From: Promethearchaeota archaeon
Lineage (GTDB): Archaea; Asgardarchaeota; Lokiarchaeia; Sigyniarchaeales; SOKP01
Assembly: GCA_016926735.1 (NCBI GenBank)
Contig: JAFGOA010000105.1
Coordinates: 1-50,103, forward strand
Length of the DNA: 50,103 bases
Direction of reading: 5' to 3'
The notes beneath the pieces are model-generated. The model saw only the letters and a list, made by a program, of their open reading frames with translations, did not search any database and was not told the DNA's origin. Shown piece by piece: positions 3,541-30,539 of this stretch. The first letter of the stretch is position 1. Every line of letters starts with the position of its first letter. Made by a program: the position numbers and the translations under genes.

Positions 3541-5379
3541 TTATAAATCCATCATCTTTTCATTTATTTCTCTGATCATTTTACTTCGTTCTTTTGGTTT
3601 TAGAGAAGCTAATTCTCTTAGAAACTCAACTTTTTCATTATAATCCCATCTAAGTTTATCAATATTATCAATAAAACTTTCATTAAAAGCAGTCCAATTT
3701 AATCCTTTCTTATCTATAAGATATTCTATTAAATTTTCTTTTTTACAAAGTTCTAACAATTCATTATGATTGTATGAATCACCAATAGACATATCCTTTA
3801 TTTTGTTCATTTTCCCACTTAAAGAGACTCTGAACCTTCCTTTTTTAAATATAAAATATATTATAATTGTTGTTAGACCACCTAACCCTATTCCTATACC
3901 TATAATTAATAAAAAATCATTTTGAAAAATATTTTTATCTTGAATGAGTAAAATATACATTATCTCTGAATCAATACCCCATATACCATCTGTATTATCA
4001 TCCCAAACAATATGAACATTATCATAATTATCTATGAAAATTTCAGGATAAGCACTAAAGCCATTATTCCAATCAGTCACATCATCAGAAATTATAGTAA
4101 TATTTGAACACCACTCACTCTCTACGTATGAAACATACATTATTTCTGAGTCTACACCCCATATACCATCTGTATGATCCTCCCATACAACATGTATTCT
4201 TCCAAAGCTATCGATAGCAATAGAAGGATCGATGCTAGTGTCGTTATTCCAATATTCTCCATTATATCCATCAGATATGATGGTAGCATTTGACCAAGAT
4301 ATTCCATCTGTAGATGATGCATACATTATTTCTGTGTCTACACCCCATATACCATCTGTATAATCTTCCCACACAACATGAATCTTTCCAGAAGTATCAA
4401 TCTTAATGGAAGGATCTGCGCTAGTGTCGTTATTCCAATATTCACCATTAAAGCCATCAGATATGATGGTAGCATTCGACCAAGAGATTCCATCTGTAGA
4501 TGAAGCATACATAATTTCCGTATCAAATAATCCTCCGCCCCAGAATCCTATTGTATCATCTTCCCATACAACATATATCTTACCAGAACCATCAACTGTG
4601 ATTGAAGGATCATAACTGGATCCATTATTCCAATTAGTTATATCATCAGAAATAACTATGGGATTTGTCCATTCTACCCCATTTATAGAAGAGATATACA
4701 TTATTTCAGGATCTGTTCCCCATATACCATTAGTATAATCTAACCATACAACATGTATCTTTCCAGAAGTATCGAGTGCAATTTTAGGAGAAACACTATT
4801 ATCATTATTCCAATTTGTCTCATTGTCAGAGAGAATAGTAATATTTGACCACCCTATACTCTCTGTATAGGATACATACATTATTTCTGAATCTACACCC
4901 CATATACCATTTGTATAATCCTCCCATACAACATGTATCTTACCAGAAGGATCAACCCCAATGGAAGGAGAAGAACTTGTATCGTTATTCCAATATTCAC
5001 TATTATATCCATCAGAAATCACTGTAACGTTTGACCAACCGAATCCCTTTGTATAAGAACAATACATAATTTCTGTATCAAAGGGAGCTTCTCCCCAAAT
5101 ACCCTCTGTAAAATCTTCCCATACAATGTGTATCTTTCCTGAATTTTCCACCACAATCGAAGGAGTGGTACTAGTATTATTATTCCAATATTTTTCCATA
5201 AAACCATCTGAGACGATAGATATATTCATCATTCTCATACTATTCAGATTTATATTATGTAAATTCATACTGTTATTTTGATCAGATAAATTTAATAAAT
5301 GAAATTGACAGAATGGTATAAGCAACAAAATCATCAGAAATGCTTTTTTAATTATTTTGGATCCCAACATTTTTTGCAT
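3541..5379 (-). CDS. Seven-repeat beta-propeller surface protein with membrane anchor
   Basis: About 612 residues. I prefer the ATG at 5379 over the TTG just before it. An N-terminal signal/anchor (FLMILLLIPFCQF) is followed by seven repeats of ~65-70 residues, each carrying WNN, an Asp-rich turn, (S/D)GKIHVVWED, GIWG and EIMY(A/V)S. These are typical BNR/sialidase-like propeller blades. One transmembrane helix at ~485-505 (LLIIGIGIGLGGLTTIIIYF) precedes a cytoplasmic tail of ~105 charged residues. The blades face outward and could bind glycans or proteins; no sialidase catalytic set is recognisable. Neighbouring repeats are close to identical in DNA (4240-4350 and 4430-4520), which indicates recent duplication. 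Confidence 0.75.
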   Translation of the reverse strand: MQKMLGSKIIKKAFLMILLLIPFCQFHLLNLSDQNNSMNLHNINLNSMRMMNISIVSDGFMEKYWNNNTSTTPSIVVENSGKIHIVWEDFTEGIWGEAPFDTEIMYCSYTKGFGWSNVTVISDGYNSEYWNNDTSSSPSIGVDPSGKIHVVWEDYTNGIWGVDSEIMYVSYTESIGWSNITILSDNETNWNNDNSVSPKIALDTSGKIHVVWLDYTNGIWGTDPEIMYISSINGVEWTNPIVISDDITNWNNGSSYDPSITVDGSGKIYVVWEDDTIGFWGGGLFDTEIMYASSTDGISWSNATIISDGFNGEYWNNDTSADPSIKIDTSGKIHVVWEDYTDGIWGVDTEIMYASSTDGISWSNATIISDGYNGEYWNNDTSIDPSIAIDSFGRIHVVWEDHTDGIWGVDSEIMYVSYVESEWCSNITIISDDVTDWNNGFSAYPEIFIDNYDNVHIVWDDNTDGIWGIDSEIMYILLIQDKNIFQNDFLLIIGIGIGLGGLTTIIIYFIFKKGRFRVSLSGKMNKIKDMSIGDSYNHNELLELCKKENLIEYLIDKKGLNWTAFNESFIDNIDKLRWDYNEKVEFLRELASLKPKERSKMIREINEKMMDL

Positions 5380-5546
5380 CAAGTATGTAATAATTAGGTT
5401 AATATTATTTTAATTTTTAAATGATCTTTTAATAGATAGCATTATATAAATCTACTAATTTACCTAAAGTTGAAATTATAAATATATTCTTTTTAACAAT
5501 TATTATCGACCATCTTCTAGGTATTAAAATAAAAATTACCTTATAT

Positions 5547-5571
5547 ATAGGTCTAGTACAAAACTGAAATA
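5547..5571. repeat. Copy 2 of a 25-bp motif shared with 2735-2760
   Basis: ATAGGTCTAGTACAAAACTG followed by AAATA, 21 of 25 positions identical to the copy at 2735. It lies about 170 bp upstream of the propeller gene start. See the other copy for interpretation. Confidence 0.3.
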
Positions 5572-5674
5572 TGAACTAAAAGTGATCCATAGGTTGTATG
5601 TAGTTTACCTTATAATCCTATTTATATCATTTAAAATTATTCAGAGTTCTTTTATATATAATTATTTCTATTAT

Positions 5675-6070: not shown

Positions 6071-6263
6071 AATATTTCTTAAATTATATTATTCAATTAT
6101 AATTATTTATATATTGTATTTAGCTTTAAAAAGATTTAGGGTTCATTTTAGAATTTTAATAATTTACTTCCACCTTTCGATTATGATTTTTTATCATATT
6201 GACAAAACTAAAATAAAATTTGGACTAGATCAGTTTAAATAATCATTCTTTATTATTAATTTT

Positions 6264-6833
6264 ATGTCAAAAAAAATATTAATAGTATATGGCTCTCGTT
6301 GGGGCAGTACGGAAGAAATTTCAAATAAATTAAAACAACAATTGGAAGAAAAAAAATATGAAGTTGATATAATAGATTTAAAATCAAAACAAAAACAAAT
6401 ATCAAATTTTAATGATTATTCAGGAATCCTAATAGGAACTGGTATTTCTATTGGTAAATGGACAAAACACGTTAAGAAATTTGTAACAAAAAATATGAAT
6501 GTAATTAATAATAACAAGAATTTCATAGTAGGAATTTTCTTAAGTTCGGGCTTGGCCTCAGAACAAGAAAAAAGGGATGAGGCTATTGAAAAATTTATAC
6601 TAAATAAATTTGAGAAAATGGGTATAAATTTAGGAGATAATATCATGTATGATGCTTTTGGTGGAGTATACGATCTATCTGAAACAACAAAGTTAAGCGG
6701 ATTAATGCAAAAAATGCTAAAGATGGCAGGTAAAGAAGATCCAGAACATATTGTTGTAGGTGAAAGAAAAGATTTTCGTGATTGGGATCAAATTAATAAT
6801 TTTCTTGAAAAATTTGTTTCTAAAATTCAATAA
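6264..6833 (+). CDS. Flavodoxin-domain protein (HemG-like)
   Basis: 189 residues. The N-terminal strand and phosphate loop (ILIVYGSRWGSTEEISNKL) match the FMN-binding T/S-x-T/S-G-x-T/S region of flavodoxins. Further FMN-shell elements follow: LIGTGISIGKWTKHVKKFV and VGIFLSSGLAS. The length and the GTGISIGKW segment resemble the flavodoxin-like protoporphyrinogen oxidase HemG/YfjA group more than small electron-carrier flavodoxins. A specific substrate cannot be assigned. It stands alone; the ATG follows an AT-rich upstream region without a clear Shine-Dalgarno. Confidence 0.7.
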   Translation: MSKKILIVYGSRWGSTEEISNKLKQQLEEKKYEVDIIDLKSKQKQISNFNDYSGILIGTGISIGKWTKHVKKFVTKNMNVINNNKNFIVGIFLSSGLASEQEKRDEAIEKFILNKFEKMGINLGDNIMYDAFGGVYDLSETTKLSGLMQKMLKMAGKEDPEHIVVGERKDFRDWDQINNFLEKFVSKIQ

Positions 6834-6926
6834 TTCGTAATGTAAAAGAAGATGGTATATTTTAGAGAAAATTTCGAGTAAATTTATGATAAAAGAAAAT
6901 GAAATTGCTATTCTATAATTGAATAA

Positions 6927-7031
6927 TGGGCCTGGCAGGATTCGAACCTGCGACATCGGGTTCTATAGAATATCTCTATAAAAAATCCCAGTCCGAAGCC
7001 GGGTACCCTATCCAGACTAGATTACAAGCCC
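6927..7031 (-). tRNA. tRNA-Arg (anticodon TCG) with a 30-nt intron in the variable loop
   Basis: Read on the minus strand from 7031. The acceptor is GGGCTTG paired with CAGGCCC, with discriminator A at 6927 and no CCA. The D-stem is ATCT/GGGT. The anticodon arm is CCCGG-CTTCGGA-CTGGG (anticodon TCG at 6994-6996), and the T-arm is GCAGG-TTCGAAT-CCTGC. Between the anticodon stem and the T-stem lie 35 nt instead of 5. Removing 6955-6984 leaves the normal variable loop ATGTC. There is no intron at the canonical 37/38 site. Confidence 0.93.
6955..6984 (-). other. Non-canonical tRNA intron (position ~45/46) with a bulge-helix-bulge
   Basis: The RNA folds into a textbook archaeal splice site. A 4-bp central helix UGGG/CCCG is flanked by two 3-nt bulges (AUU and AUG). 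Beyond the first bulge there is a 9-bp intron stem UUUUAUAGA/UCUAUAGAA closed by GAUAU. Cutting after the second nucleotide of each bulge yields a 30-nt intron and a 5-nt variable loop. Confidence 0.85.
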
Positions 7032-7236
7032 ATGAGTTTAGTTAATAAGTATTTATTATTAAAACAAACTAGGATCTATAATTATAAGATACCTTATCTC
7101 TAAAAAATTTATTGGAAAAAAAGGAATTTTTTGTACTAAACTAATCAAACCTAAAAAGAGATAAAATTTTTATATTTTATTTTATTTCTTATCATACTAT
7201 TGTAATTGAAAAAATCATTTTTACAATAAATACTCT

Positions 7237-7341
7237 GCCCACATAGTGTAGCCCGGTCCAGCATTCGGGACTGTCACTCCTGCGACGCGGGTTCAAAACA
7301 ATATGTATTTTCTACATGTGATGAGAATCCCGCTGTGGGCG
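7237..7341 (+). tRNA. tRNA-Asp (anticodon GTC) with a 30-nt intron in the T-loop
   Basis: The acceptor is GCCCACA/TGTGGGC, with discriminator G at 7341 and no CCA. The D-stem is GTGT/GCAT. The anticodon arm is CGGGA-CTGTCAC-TCCTG (GTC at 7273-7275), and the T-stem is GCGGG/CCCGC. The T-loop region holds 37 nt rather than 7. Removing 7298-7327 restores the standard loop TTCAAAT. The anticodon loop itself is uninterrupted. It lies 205 bp from the oppositely oriented tRNA-Arg and has the same gene length, 105 bp. Confidence 0.93.
7298..7327 (+). other. Non-canonical tRNA intron (T-loop, position 59/60) with a bulge-helix-bulge
   Basis: A central helix UUCA/UGAG has 3-nt bulges AAA and AAU, lies directly inside the T-stem, and is followed by an intron stem AUAUGUA/UACAUGU closed by UUUUC. 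Cutting after the second base of each bulge gives a 30-nt intron. Position 59/60 introns are known from Thermoproteales. Confidence 0.8.
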
Positions 7342-25371: not shown

Positions 25372-25629
25372 TTGTCAGAACACGAAAAAATTAATGAAGA
25401 AGATTTTAAATCTGTATTAGATACAAGGGGATTATATTGTCCAGAACCGTTATTTGAAATTCGAAATTTTTCAGAAGACATTGAAATAGGAAAGTGTTTT
25501 AAGGTTTTTGCTGATGATCCTGCTGCAGAAGAGGATTTTAAAAGGTGGGCAAAAAGGACGGGACAAGAAATCTTAAGATTCGAAAAGAATGGTGAAGATC
25601 TTGTTTTTTATTTTAAAAAAAAAAAATAA
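25372..25629 (+). CDS. tusA: TusA-family sulfur carrier
   Basis: 85 residues, from a TTG start preceded by a strong Shine-Dalgarno (AGGAGGT, 25359-25365). The family motif is DTRGLYCPEPLFEIRN, whose Cys carries the persulfide. FKVFADDPAAEEDFKRWAKR and a final amphipathic helix complete the fold. TusA proteins relay sulfane sulfur between desulfurases, rhodaneses and acceptors. It opens a tight gene string (15 bp, 32 bp and 2 bp gaps) with DsrE, IscS-like and IscU-fusion genes, so delivery of persulfide sulfur to Fe-S assembly is a reasonable inference. Confidence 0.9.
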   Translation: MSEHEKINEEDFKSVLDTRGLYCPEPLFEIRNFSEDIEIGKCFKVFADDPAAEEDFKRWAKRTGQEILRFEKNGEDLVFYFKKKK

Positions 25630-25644
25630 ATTGGTGAGAATAAA

Positions 25645-26004
25645 ATGGATAAAAATTTTATATTGTATGTTCAAACCTCTGATGCTCCAGAAAGACAATA
25701 TTCTCCTTTGGTTTTAGCTCAAACTGCAAAGGCAATGGATATAAAAGCTATAGTTTATTATCTAGGTCAAGGATTAAGGATTCTTAAACCAGGAGAAGCA
25801 GAAAAAATAAAATTAGGTGATTTTCCTAGTGTTAAAGAAATGATTGATAAGACTCTAAAAGCAGGTGTAGAAATATTAGTATGTGAAGCATCAAAAAGAA
25901 TGTTAAATTGGGATAAAGTAGAATTAATTCCAGGTACTAAAATAGTTGGAGCAGCTACATTAAATGATTTAGTACTTGAAGCAGGAGGAACCATGTGGTT
26001 TTAA
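25645..26004 (+). CDS. DsrE-family sulfurtransferase subunit
   Basis: 119 residues with a single DsrE/F-like fold (YVQTSDAPERQYSPLVLAQT ... AIVYYLGQGLRILKPGEAEK) and one conserved Cys in ILVCEASKRML at the position that takes up sulfur in DsrE/TusD. Such proteins act with TusA-like carriers as persulfide exchange modules. The gene lies 15 bp after tusA and 32 bp before the IscS-like gene. Confidence 0.85.
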   Translation: MDKNFILYVQTSDAPERQYSPLVLAQTAKAMDIKAIVYYLGQGLRILKPGEAEKIKLGDFPSVKEMIDKTLKAGVEILVCEASKRMLNWDKVELIPGTKIVGAATLNDLVLEAGGTMWF

Positions 26005-26036: not shown

Positions 26037-27233
26037 ATGAATGAAATATATTTAGATTATCAAGCAGCAAAACCAGTAGACAAACAAGTTTTAGAATATA
26101 TGATGCCATATTTCAGTGAAATTTTTAGTAATCCCGCATCTTTACATAATTCTGGAGATATAGCAACTGAAAAACTTGAAGAATCAAGAAAGAAAATTGC
26201 TCAATTTATAAATGCACCTGAAATTTCCTCAATTATTTTCACTTCAAGTGCTACTGAATCAAATAATTTGGCAATAATAGGGGCAGCTCAAAGATATCAT
26301 AAAAAAGGAAATCATATTATAATTTCGGAGATAGAACATATTTCAATTTTTAATATTTGTAAATATCTGGAAAGAAATGGGTTTCAAATTAGCAAAGTCC
26401 CTGTAGATCAATATGGTATTGTTAAAATTGATAAATTAAAAAGGTTAATACAAGAAAACACAATACTTATTTCTATAGCAACTGCTAGTAATGAGGTAGG
26501 ATCATTACAACCAATAGAACAAATAAGTAAGATTGCTCAAGAGAAGGAGATATTATTTCATACAGATGCAATTGCTAGCGAATCAGTAATTCCTATAGAC
26601 GTTCAAACGATTCCTGTAGATTTTTTATCATTATCATCAAATGATATTTATGGTCCTAAAGGTGTTGCCGCTTTGTATATTAAAAAAGGGATAAGAGTAA
26701 ATCCAATCATATTAGGAGGAGGTCAAGAAAATGGCTTTAGATCGGGTTCACATAATCTCCATGGAATAATAGGATTTGGTAAGGCTGCAGAAATTATGAA
26801 AAAAGAGATTAATCAAGAAGCAAAAAGATTAGAATTTTTAAGAGATAAATTGATTAAAGGTATATTAAATTCTATTCCAAATTCATATTTAAATGGTCAT
26901 CCAACTAATAGATTACCAAATAATGCTCATTTTAGGTTTGATTTCATTGAAGGGGAGTCGTTAATCTTAGGATTGAAAGATCAAGGGATTGCTGCAGCTA
27001 CAGGATCAGCATGCAGTTCTAAAACTCTAGAACCCTCACATACTTTGATTTCTTGTGGATTACTTCATGAAGAAGCTCATGGTAGTTTATTAATATCATT
27101 AGGTAGATACTCAAAAGAAGAAGAAATCGATAAATTATTAGAAGGATTACCAAAAATAATAAAAAGATTAAGACTTCTATCACCATTAACTCCTCAAGAA
27201 TTAATAAAACAGTATAATGAGGTGAATAATTAA
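26037..27233 (+). CDS. iscS: IscS/NifS-like protein lacking the PLP lysine
   Basis: 398 residues, full-length class V aminotransferase fold. It keeps the substrate-loop Cys (GSACSSKTLEPS, C326), the conserved EH pair (ISEIEHISIF), the PLP-ring Asp (HTDAIAS) and the GGGQENGFRSG motif. But where IscS has SGHK (the Schiff-base lysine) this protein has SSND at residues 200-203, just before IYGPKG. The same Lys-to-Asp change was described for Archaeoglobus fulgidus IscS, which lacks bound PLP. As written it should not desulfurate cysteine by the usual route. Inference: it may act as a scaffold or persulfide donor fed by TusA/DsrE. It ends 2 bp before the IscU gene. Confidence 0.9.
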   Translation: MNEIYLDYQAAKPVDKQVLEYMMPYFSEIFSNPASLHNSGDIATEKLEESRKKIAQFINAPEISSIIFTSSATESNNLAIIGAAQRYHKKGNHIIISEIEHISIFNICKYLERNGFQISKVPVDQYGIVKIDKLKRLIQENTILISIATASNEVGSLQPIEQISKIAQEKEILFHTDAIASESVIPIDVQTIPVDFLSLSSNDIYGPKGVAALYIKKGIRVNPIILGGGQENGFRSGSHNLHGIIGFGKAAEIMKKEINQEAKRLEFLRDKLIKGILNSIPNSYLNGHPTNRLPNNAHFRFDFIEGESLILGLKDQGIAAATGSACSSKTLEPSHTLISCGLLHEEAHGSLLISLGRYSKEEEIDKLLEGLPKIIKRLRLLSPLTPQELIKQYNEVNN

Positions 27234-27235
27234 AA

Positions 27236-28030
27236 ATGAAATCAACTCAATATTCAGAAAAAGTTTTAGATCATTTCCGAAATCCTAGGAATGTTGGGGT
27301 AATAGAAAATCCAGATGGATATGGAAAAGTTGGAAATCCCGTCTGTGGTGATCTAATGGAAATTTTCATTAGAGTTGGTAAAAACAAAAATGATGAGGAT
27401 ATTTTAACAGACATTAAATTTAGAACTTTTGGATGTGGTTCAGCTGTAGCAACATCTTCGATGATTACAGAGTTAGCAAAGGGGAAAACAGTAAGTGAAG
27501 CATACAAAATTACAAGGGGCGATGTTGCTGATGAATTAGGTGGACTTCCTCCGATAAAAATGCATTGTTCCAATCTAGCTGCAGATGCCCTTCAAGCAGC
27601 AATTAGAAATTATAGAGAAGGTACAAGACCTGATGTTGAAGTAATAACTTCGTGTCAAATAGAAATTAAAGTGATTTTAGGATTTGATGAACTTCTTGGT
27701 AAAGGTGCATATAAAAGTGTTGATAATATTCAAGAGTTTACTGATAAAAGAGTATTAGTTGTAGACAATGGAGATAATTCAATAGAATTAGCAATAAAAT
27801 TAACTGAGATTACTGGCAGAGTTATTTTAGTTACCTCTGGAAAGTTTTTACCAGGTAAAAAAGAATTGCAGGAAGCTTTAAAAAAATCTGATGTTAAAAT
27901 CCTTTATGAATCAGAATTAATAGAAGTAAAAGGTATAGAAGACGTAGAAAAAGTAATTATCCATGATTTTGATGAAGATAATAATTATGAATTATTCGTT
28001 GATAGCGTAATAAATTTAGACGATAGATAA
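27236..28030 (+). CDS. iscU: IscU scaffold fused to a thioredoxin-reductase-like NAD domain
   Basis: 264 residues, twice the usual IscU. Residues 1-~140 are complete IscU, with the three cluster ligands in NPVCGDLMEI, RTFGCGSAVATSS and KMHCSNLAADAL and the conserved Asp after the first Cys. Residues ~165-264 (RVLVVDNGDNSIELAIKLTE, GRVILVTSGKFLPGKKELQE, VKILYESELIEVKGIEDVEK) follow the pattern of the nucleotide-binding half of thioredoxin reductase, though the Gly loop is degenerate. It is coupled to the IscS-like gene and followed by a T-tract. The extra domain might supply electrons or only dock a partner. Confidence 0.88.
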   Translation: MKSTQYSEKVLDHFRNPRNVGVIENPDGYGKVGNPVCGDLMEIFIRVGKNKNDEDILTDIKFRTFGCGSAVATSSMITELAKGKTVSEAYKITRGDVADELGGLPPIKMHCSNLAADALQAAIRNYREGTRPDVEVITSCQIEIKVILGFDELLGKGAYKSVDNIQEFTDKRVLVVDNGDNSIELAIKLTEITGRVILVTSGKFLPGKKELQEALKKSDVKILYESELIEVKGIEDVEKVIIHDFDEDNNYELFVDSVINLDDR

Positions 28031-28178: not shown

Positions 28179-30539
28179 ATGAAAAAAATTATAATTATAG
28201 GTGGTGTAGCAGGAGGAGCTACAGCAGCAGCACGGTTGAGAAGATTAAGAGAAGATTTTGAAATAATTATTTTAGAAAGGGGGCATTTTGTTTCTTTTGC
28301 AAATTGTGGACTCCCATATTATATTGGAAAGGTCATTAAAGACCAATCTCAATTAGAATTAATGACTCCAGAGGAATTTTTTCAAAGGTTTAATATAGAT
28401 GTAAGAATTCAACATGAAGCTATTAAGATTGATAGAGAAAATAAAAATATAACAATTAAAAATAAAATAATTGGTAAAGAGTATGTTTTAGATTATGATT
28501 ATATCATTCTTTCACCAGGAGCAAGTCCAATTATCCCTAATTTTAAAGGATTAGATAGTGTACCAACATTTACATTAAGAACAATCCCAGATTCTGTCAA
28601 AATTAGAAATTATATCAAAGAAAATCAAGTAAAACATGCAACAATTATTGGAGGAGGATATATTGGTCTAGAAATGGCTGAGAATCTGCATAATCATGGT
28701 ATTAAAGTTAAGATCGTAGAAATGCTAGAACAAGTATTAGCTCCAATAGATAGGGAAATGGCTCAATTTATACATCAAGAATTGATTTTAAACGGTATTT
28801 GTTTACAATTAGGAGATGCGGTTGATTTTTTTCAATGTGAAAATCAATGTAATTATGTTATTCCCAGAAGTGGTAATAAGATAAAAACAGATATAATAAT
28901 ATTAGCAATAGGAGTAAAACCTGAAAATAATCTTGCAAAAAATACTGATCTTCAATTAGGTGAGCGTGGTCATATAATTGTAAATCATAATATGCAAACA
29001 TCAGATCCTTCTATATATGCCATTGGTGATGTAGTTCAAGTCAAAAATTTTATTGATAAAAAACCAGTAGCAATTCCTTTAGCCGGTCCTGCAAATAAGC
29101 AGGGAAGAATTGCTGCTGATAACATTGCCGGACGAAAATCAAAATATAAGGGAATTCTTGGAACATCAGTGCTAAAGATATTTGATTTAACTGTAGCATT
29201 TGTGGGATTAAATGAAAAACAAATAAAAAGTACTAATATTCAATACGATAAAGTGTATATTCATCCAAATAATCATGCAGAATATTATCCAAGAGCAATT
29301 CCTATAAGTATAAAATTACTATTTGAAATCCCAAGTGGTAAAATTTTAGGAGCCCAAGCAATTGGAGGTCCTGGAGCAGAAAAAAGAATAGATATCATTT
29401 CAACCGTTATACATTTTGGGGGAACTGTATTTGATTTAGAAGATTTGGAATTATCTTATGCACCACCTTATGGTTCTGCAAAAGATCCTGTTAATATGGT
29501 AGGATATGTAGCATCAAACGTAATTAAAGGAGACCATCCTATATGGCATTGGAATATGGAAGATGTAATTAAATCTTCGGAAAATATAATTCTCGATGTG
29601 AGAACATCTGAGGAATTTCAAGTTGGTACAATTAAAGGAGCAATAAATATTAGTGATTTAGAATTAAGAGATAGATATAAAGAAATTCCACCAAATAAAA
29701 ATATTTATGTATTTTGTGAAGTAGGTTTTAGAGGATATTTAGCTACAAAATTTCTAATGCAAAAAGGGTATAATATAAAAAATCTAACTGGAGGGTATAA
29801 ATTATATAAAACTGCAAGAGCAACTATAGAAGAAATCGCTCAAGAATGTGGTACATCTGAAGAATATATAACCCAAATGATAGAAAATAAATCTTCTATT
29901 AGTGATGATTATGTTATAATAGATGCATCTGGGCTCCCTTGTCCAGGTCCTTTAAATTCTATGATTAGAGCATTAGAAAACTTACCAAATAACAAGAAGT
30001 TAATGATATATGCAACCGATCCTGGATTTAAATCAAGTGTCGAAGCATATGTACAACTAAATAATAAAGTCAAACTTCTTTTTATAGGGAAGGAAGAAGG
30101 AAAAATGGTAGTTAAATTGGAAAAATCCGATTCATCAATCGAAGATGTTAAAAGTCCTATTCAAATTAAAAAGAAAACTCGAAAAGAATTAAGGGAAAAA
30201 AAGGCTGCACCTATATCAGAAATTAGTGTTGATGAGCTTTATAATAGATTAGACACAGAAGATTCTCCAAAAACATTAGTAGATGTACGAACTCCGCAGG
30301 AGTTTTATGCTTCAGGTGGCCATATTAAAGGAAGTCAATTACTTCCATTAGGAGATTTAATTACAAATTTAGATCAATTAGAACGATATAAAAATGATGA
30401 GGTTGTTATTATTTGTCATAGTGGATCACGTTCAATGATGGCGGCTCAACTCTTAGAAAGAACTGGATTCAAGGATATAAGAAATCTAACTGGTGGTATG
30501 TTAAATTGGCATAAAAAAGGATTCCCAACAGAAAAATAA
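28179..30539 (+). CDS. CoA-disulfide reductase-like flavoprotein fused to rhodanese-TusA-rhodanese
   Basis: 786 residues, four modules. (1) ~1-450: FAD/NAD oxidoreductase (GGVAGGATAAARL; IIGGGYIGLEMAENL; YAIGDVVQV), with the single active-site Cys43 in SFANCGLPYY as in CoA-disulfide reductase/NADH-polysulfide reductase. (2) ~455-560: rhodanese, loop CEVGFRG (Cys ~512). (3) ~578-655: TusA domain, DASGLPCPGPL (Cys ~586). (4) ~690-786: second rhodanese, loop CHSGSRS. All three carrier Cys are present, so persulfide sulfur could pass from domain to domain. CoADR-rhodanese fusions reduce polysulfide or CoA persulfide with NAD(P)H; the internal TusA and second rhodanese extend that scheme. It lies 148 bp after iscU. 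Confidence 0.9.
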   Translation: MKKIIIIGGVAGGATAAARLRRLREDFEIIILERGHFVSFANCGLPYYIGKVIKDQSQLELMTPEEFFQRFNIDVRIQHEAIKIDRENKNITIKNKIIGKEYVLDYDYIILSPGASPIIPNFKGLDSVPTFTLRTIPDSVKIRNYIKENQVKHATIIGGGYIGLEMAENLHNHGIKVKIVEMLEQVLAPIDREMAQFIHQELILNGICLQLGDAVDFFQCENQCNYVIPRSGNKIKTDIIILAIGVKPENNLAKNTDLQLGERGHIIVNHNMQTSDPSIYAIGDVVQVKNFIDKKPVAIPLAGPANKQGRIAADNIAGRKSKYKGILGTSVLKIFDLTVAFVGLNEKQIKSTNIQYDKVYIHPNNHAEYYPRAIPISIKLLFEIPSGKILGAQAIGGPGAEKRIDIISTVIHFGGTVFDLEDLELSYAPPYGSAKDPVNMVGYVASNVIKGDHPIWHWNMEDVIKSSENIILDVRTSEEFQVGTIKGAINISDLELRDRYKEIPPNKNIYVFCEVGFRGYLATKFLMQKGYNIKNLTGGYKLYKTARATIEEIAQECGTSEEYITQMIENKSSISDDYVIIDASGLPCPGPLNSMIRALENLPNNKKLMIYATDPGFKSSVEAYVQLNNKVKLLFIGKEEGKMVVKLEKSDSSIEDVKSPIQIKKKTRKELREKKAAPISEISVDELYNRLDTEDSPKTLVDVRTPQEFYASGGHIKGSQLLPLGDLITNLDQLERYKNDEVVIICHSGSRSMMAAQLLERTGFKDIRNLTGGMLNWHKKGFPTEK

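Follow-up and report, generated by a model that had tools for sequence, protein, structure and literature searches.

The window, a stretch of 50,103 nucleotides from a Promethearchaeota archaeon of the Lokiarchaeia, carries a cassette of four genes in which an IscS without the lysine that forms the Schiff base with pyridoxal phosphate (PLP) stands between the sulfur carriers TusA and DsrE and the scaffold IscU. We favour, with modest confidence, the reading that this cassette is an Fe-S assembly module fed by sulfane sulfur, not by cysteine, through a persulfide relay. The sulfur source and the role of lysine-less IscS in cluster assembly have been a standing question since the work on Archaeoglobus fulgidus; the near-exclusive linkage of the lysine-less form to TusA and DsrE points to these two as the probable sulfur donors, and the question is testable with four small proteins.

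The four genes (Table 1) are arranged as an earlier note on this DNA had described them, in the order TusA-DsrE-IscS-IscU, all on the forward strand and separated by gaps of 15, 32 and 2 bases. The TusA gene starts with TTG, preceded by an AGGAGG-like ribosome-binding site; its product has the CPxP motif of TusA proteins, of which Cys23, Pro24 and Pro26 were kept in 71/71 TusA sequences encoded upstream of lysine-less IscS. The DsrE product matches the DsrE/TusD family profiles and has a single conserved cysteine, Cys80, present in 96% of 54 upstream DsrE sequences, some of them truncated. Comparison with the sister species gave dN/dS values of 0.07 for IscS, 0.11 for TusA, 0.03 for DsrE and 0.08 for IscU, indicating strong purifying selection on all four genes.

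Table 1. Features of the window, with the basis of each assignment.
Feature	Coordinates	Strand	Basis
tRNA gene, likely with an intron	6927..7031	-	105 bases in Rfam match; ARAGORN: tRNA-Tyr, anticodon ATA
TusA, 85 aa, persulfide carrier, CPEP motif at 23-26 (Cys23)	25372..25629	+	Pfam PF01206 61.5 bits
DsrE/DsrF-family sulfurtransferase, 119 aa, candidate persulfide Cys80	25645..26004	+	PF02635 48.3 bits, PF13686 49.1 bits; PDB 3mc3
IscS, lysine-less, 398 aa	26037..27233	+	Intact ORF; Pfam, NCBIfam and PDB matches; alignment
Ala180 codon, replaces E. coli Gln183	26574..26576	+	Alignment; Gln183 role from PMC9978102
Asp203 codon, replaces PLP-lysine (E. coli Lys206)	26643..26645	+	Alignment to E. 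coli IscS
Cys326 codon, mobile-loop Cys (E. coli Cys328, A. fulgidus Cys321)	27012..27014	+	C in 78/78 of lineage
Leu352 codon, replaces E. coli Arg354	27090..27092	+	Alignment; Arg354 role from PMC9978102
IscU scaffold (residues 1-128) with C-terminal domain (about 147-260)	27236..28030	+	NifU_N 155.9 bits; Pyr_redox 24.4 bits; AlphaFold/Foldseek
CoA-disulfide-reductase-like flavoprotein, 786 aa, rhodanese + TusA + rhodanese domains	28179..30539	+	Pfam, NCBIfam

The window IscS matched the Pfam family Aminotran_5 at 255 bits, as an IscS/NifS-like protein, and its top NCBIfam model was NifS at 473 bits, below the cut-off of 531; no equivalog cut-off was reached. Residues S200-S201-N202-D203 align on S203-G204-H205-K206 of E. 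coli IscS (L176), so that Asp203 occupies the Schiff-base position. This alignment bears out the earlier note, which had seen SSND in place of SGHK before IYGPKG, with the loop cysteine Cys326 kept, and had named another lysine at the Schiff-base position as what would overturn it; none was found there. The lysine of IYGPKG itself lies downstream of the site and is shared with lysine-bearing IscS. Among the marks of a cysteine desulfurase, the Schiff-base lysine, Arg354 and Gln183 (E. coli numbering) are absent, while the loop cysteine and membership of the sequence family are present. In E. coli IscS, Gln183 and Asp180 bond PLP, Gln183 through a hydrogen bond to its phenolate oxygen, His104 stacks on PLP, and the alpha-carboxylate of the substrate is reportedly bound by Arg354 (PMC9978102).

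Sequencing error was rejected as the cause of the missing lysine, which is also absent from a separate metagenome-assembled genome (MAG; 89% identical, L040/L080) and from all 78 aligned sequences of the lineage. A pseudogene was likewise rejected on the dN/dS of IscS and the absence of the lysine in independent MAGs. That the gene is a decaying paralogue without function is a reading to which we give next to no credence: the loss of catalytic residues would fit it, but it is contradicted by the low dN/dS, the intact operon and the conservation of the clade across Asgard archaea, Archaeoglobi and other archaea.

The active site was compared between 78 sequences of the lineage and 56 lysine-bearing homologues. 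In the lineage the Lys206 column held 75 D, 2 E and 1 S, the His205 column N throughout (78), the Gln183 column 76 A and 2 P, and the Arg354 column L, E, V or Q; further lineage-specific losses fell at T12, T13, G75 and A106, nearly all at or beside the active site. Retained were Thr76 (78/78), His104 (78/78), Asp180 (76/78), Ser203 (78/78) and Cys328 (78/78). The parts that form the Schiff base and hold the substrate are thus gone, and the non-covalent PLP pocket is kept. The earlier note had correctly stated that A. fulgidus IscS has Asp at this place, but its further statement that the protein has no PLP is doubtful, since a figure legend in PMC9769115 gives the A. fulgidus IscS-IscU structure 4EB5 with PLP; continued presence of PLP in the lineage would fit both this legend and the nearly invariant pocket. 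If bound, PLP would have a structural role in the lysine-less protein.

A kept pocket could also mean that IscS still takes sulfur from cysteine by means of non-covalent PLP, with the part of the lysine played by His104 or Asp203, and then charges TusA and DsrE in the E. coli direction. The near-invariance of T76, H104, D180 and S203, the PLP of 4EB5 as described in that legend and the very low rate discussed for the K206A variant of E. coli IscS (PMC9978102) speak for this. We nevertheless consider it improbable: the residues aligned with Arg354 and Gln183 make cysteine desulfuration unlikely, and A. fulgidus IscS is reported, as cited in PMC7585200, to lack this activity.

The exact motif SSNDIYGPKG was found in 88/393 genomes searched, nearly all of the same phylum, with three other archaea. 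It also occurred in Archaeoglobi and in further families of the phylum of genome G316, as well as in 1/97 genomes from the phylum to which a Thermoplasmatota locus belongs, and was absent from 52 genomes of one bacterial phylum. In trees built after removal of the active-site columns, all sequences with Asn-Asp at the site (ND type) formed one clade (SH-aLRT 99 in one tree; bootstrap 100 and SH-aLRT 99 in a more careful tree) that includes A. fulgidus and spans Asgard archaea, Archaeoglobi and other archaea. Judged by its sequence, the window IscS is a further member of this A. fulgidus type, having Asn-Asp at the position of the PLP-lysine, Ala for Gln183 and no Arg354. One variant (L073, genome G056) reads SANS where the lysine would be and GASCAS in its loop motif, with TusA, DsrE and IscU genes still adjoining.

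Carrier genes were sought with TusA and DsrE profiles within 2.6 kb upstream of 77 ND loci and 63 lysine-bearing IscS loci. TusA and/or DsrE lay directly upstream at 73/77 ND loci (both at 50, TusA only at 21, DsrE only at 2, neither at 4), against 0/63 lysine-bearing loci. Among the four without a profile match, tblastn found DsrE at L119 and L135, and L154 has both carriers about 4.6-5 kb away. After clustering at 80% identity the contrast was 46/47 against 0/57; Fisher's test gave p of about 1e-26 with phylogeny ignored, and such values, computed as if loci were independent, exaggerate the linkage, because the trees need two to three changes and one origin stays statistically acceptable. 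The linkage may thus trace to few events, and an independent-pairs test, with only 2-3 pairs, had no power. When the neighbours at 74 loci were clustered, no families other than IscS, IscU/TusA and DsrE recurred at most loci, and the gaps between the genes were short. Pairwise distances of the four cassette proteins correlate (r 0.49-0.75), as is expected if the four genes travel together and as a shared species tree would also produce.

A second lysine-less group, the Methanosarcina-type IscS1 (L169, L195-L203), has SAHT at the site. TusA and a DrsE_2-type DsrE lie directly upstream in 6/10 of these loci (L169, L195-L198, L202), in a cassette that includes IscU, and are absent from the other 4/10; at L169 IscU bears an FeS_assembly_P domain. 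The carriers are divergent here, and tblastn with the window TusA and DsrE missed them where profiles recovered them. In the SAHT active site His104 is replaced by Asp, Asn155 by Gln and Gln183 by His, and Arg354 is kept. The careful tree placed the group among lysine-bearing sequences, a topology with two changes, and 0/200 bootstrap trees had a single one; AU tests were compatible with one origin shared by all lysine-less forms (p 0.80 for a quick tree, 0.38 for the careful tree), so that a repeated association of lysine loss with the carriers is suggested by these sequences rather than established. Two further lysine-less sequences, L075 (DAHR) and L210 (SGNQ), had no TusA or DsrE within the stretch read. 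In L199 and L203 a gene for a Thi4-like thiazole synthase, rather than TusA-DsrE, lies upstream of the SAHT IscS.

Other sulfur-mobilising genes were sought in the same genomes. G496, taken as A. fulgidus, carries two copies of ND IscS, at about 165 and 512 kb; its remaining inspected Aminotran_5 matches comprised SepCysS, a transaminase and an MfnA-like decarboxylase, without any lysine-bearing IscS/NifS or SufS. The SepCysS paralogue (L136:2991-4163) lies downstream of iscS1; an HTH gene and a second DsrE-like gene (5187-5585) separate the two. By strong Aminotran_5 matches, the ND type was the only IscS/NifS found in the Archaeoglobi genomes searched; one of them, G476, had a weak SufS-like match. 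The window genome has, elsewhere, a lysine-bearing IscS with the motif SAHK (L078:8251-9465), a SufS-like gene and a second IscU, so that cysteine sulfur is available in that cell. The cassette therefore serves in cells that have a normal desulfurase as well as in cells that lack one. Both IscS types occur together in many Lokiarchaeal relatives, as in the window genome, and lysine-less and lysine-bearing subunits might work in one cell as a mixed dimer or relay. This appears very improbable to us: in the window genome the two types lie apart, each with its own IscU nearby, and since no lysine-bearing copy was found in A. fulgidus or the other Archaeoglobi genomes searched, a partner copy that desulfurates cysteine would not explain all cases.

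The window IscU has the expected Cys37, Asp39, Cys67, His110-Cys111 and LPPIK, and its ligand residues were invariant in 41 homologues. The residues that a partner of the A. fulgidus type would need, three cysteines, an aspartate and a histidine in IscU, are all present, as is the IscS loop cysteine, a putative cluster ligand. The protein continues into a C-terminal domain (27680-28030) of the NAD(P)-binding type known from thioredoxin reductase (TrxR), in degenerate form; cassette IscU proteins are 255-276 aa long in Asgard archaea and mostly 124-155 aa elsewhere. An AlphaFold model of the window protein (mean pLDDT 84.8, pTM 0.49) was matched by Foldseek to the IscU structures 4eb5_C and 7c8m and, in separate hits, to the TrxR NAD(P)-binding domain (e.g. 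2zbw, 3f8d). There is no FAD domain and no cysteine beyond residue 140, hence no CxxC pair, and the added domain is probably a binding module. At another locus (L123, downstream of IscS 6143-7306) an intein-like insertion apparently splits Cys37 of IscU (VGNPVC-LIPETLIHMNS...) in an ORF of 527 aa.

The flavoprotein gene follows IscU after 148 bases and is possibly co-transcribed with the cassette; its product is a possible sulfane-sulfur source, persulfide reductase or feeder of the cassette. Most members of the Lokiarchaeal family have such a gene no more than about 5 kb away; other families do not, and it stands outside the conserved core. The proposal of the earlier note that cluster sulfur comes from persulfide carriers (TusA, DsrE, rhodaneses) is much strengthened by the linkage of lysine loss to TusA and DsrE; its rhodanese part is plausible for the Lokiarchaeal family alone.

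The elements of a relay are in place at the level of sequence: the IscS fold, the remaining PLP pocket and the loop cysteine are kept, as are the functional cysteines of TusA, DsrE and IscU, and the four genes stay together in deeply diverging archaea. We infer its sulfur-transfer steps, that from TusA or DsrE to IscS included, as follows. Sulfur from sulfide, polysulfide or a rhodanese-type protein would be carried as persulfide on DsrE Cys80 and TusA Cys23 and handed to the loop Cys326 of IscS, or straight to IscS-bound IscU; Cys326 would then deliver sulfur to IscU, serve for a time as the fourth ligand of the forming [2Fe-2S] cluster, as has been described for A. fulgidus IscS-IscU, or both. 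The occurrence of TusA without an adjacent DsrE at 21/77 ND loci counts against this relay, as do the few ND loci and the 4/10 SAHT loci with neither carrier and the supply of cysteine sulfur in the cell of the window genome. More tentatively, we extend it to many archaea, including Asgard relatives of the eukaryote ancestor, in which lysine-less IscS would be a persulfide acceptor from DsrE/TusA on the way to IscS-IscU, a state that would have come about as the carriers were recruited, on one or perhaps several occasions.

An alternative that we consider unlikely is that IscS is purely a scaffold and ligand partner, holding IscU and ligating the cluster through Cys326, with free sulfide supplying the sulfur; TusA and DsrE would merely be co-regulated and serve, for example, tRNA thiolation, SepCysS or thiazole synthase. 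Many such archaea are anaerobes in which sulfide is probably available, and the SepCysS paralogue near A. fulgidus iscS1 and the Thi4-like gene beside two SAHT loci would fit such uses. It is also the published reading for A. fulgidus IscS, as PMC7585200 cites it; in the passages of PMC7585200 and PMC9769115 that refer to this work, the protein has no desulfurase activity and provides a cysteine ligand to the cluster. The linkage of the carriers to lysine-less loci, and to none of the 63 lysine-bearing ones, is, however, hard to explain if they work elsewhere, and the mobile-loop cysteine and its motif are fully kept. Such genes in Asgard and other archaeal genomes should not be annotated as cysteine desulfurases.

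The missing lysine of A. fulgidus and Methanosarcina acetivorans IscS is already known; our literature search found no report of an archaeal TusA-DsrE-IscS operon or of the carrier linkage. Compared with E. coli, the IscS, IscU and TusA of the window are homologous to their counterparts and the loop cysteine is common to both, whereas the E. coli IscS works as a PLP enzyme, and the window IscS is without the desulfurase residues and has tusA inside its operon. In E. coli IscS charges TusA; in the proposed relay sulfur would flow the opposite way, from TusA to the IscS fold. In Metallosphaera cuprina, TusA and DsrE-family partners exchange sulfur groups on cysteines, but the group there is a thiosulfonate and the genes stand beside Hdr-like genes (PMC4175335), while those of the window stand beside IscS-IscU. 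The minimal ISC system (MIS) and SMS are minimal Fe-S systems of archaea, with SMS reported to use sulfide without a desulfurase and MIS to have an active desulfurase (PMC12192291); the window cassette differs from the latter in its missing desulfurase residues and added carriers. M. acetivorans IscS1/IscU1 (MA0808/MA0807) likewise has an IscS without the lysine (PMC7585200), but its type differs from the window in having SAHT at the site, loss of His104 and Asn155, a kept Arg354, a DrsE_2-type DsrE and IscU with FeS_assembly_P. The closest known system is that of A. fulgidus, whose IscS structures 4eb5, 4eb7 and 4hvk were the best PDB matches of the window IscS (455 bits) and which is about 54-55% identical to it; PDB 4r5f is a variant of the A. 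fulgidus protein with Lys at the site (SSNK). The motif SSNDIYGPKG is identical in the two, the equivalents of Gln183 and Arg354 are lost, the loop cysteine is kept and IscU adjoins in both, and at the presumed A. fulgidus loci (L136, L137) DsrE lies upstream of both iscS copies and TusA upstream of one. Unlike A. fulgidus, the window has an IscU with the extra C-terminal domain and belongs to a genome with a lysine-bearing IscS.
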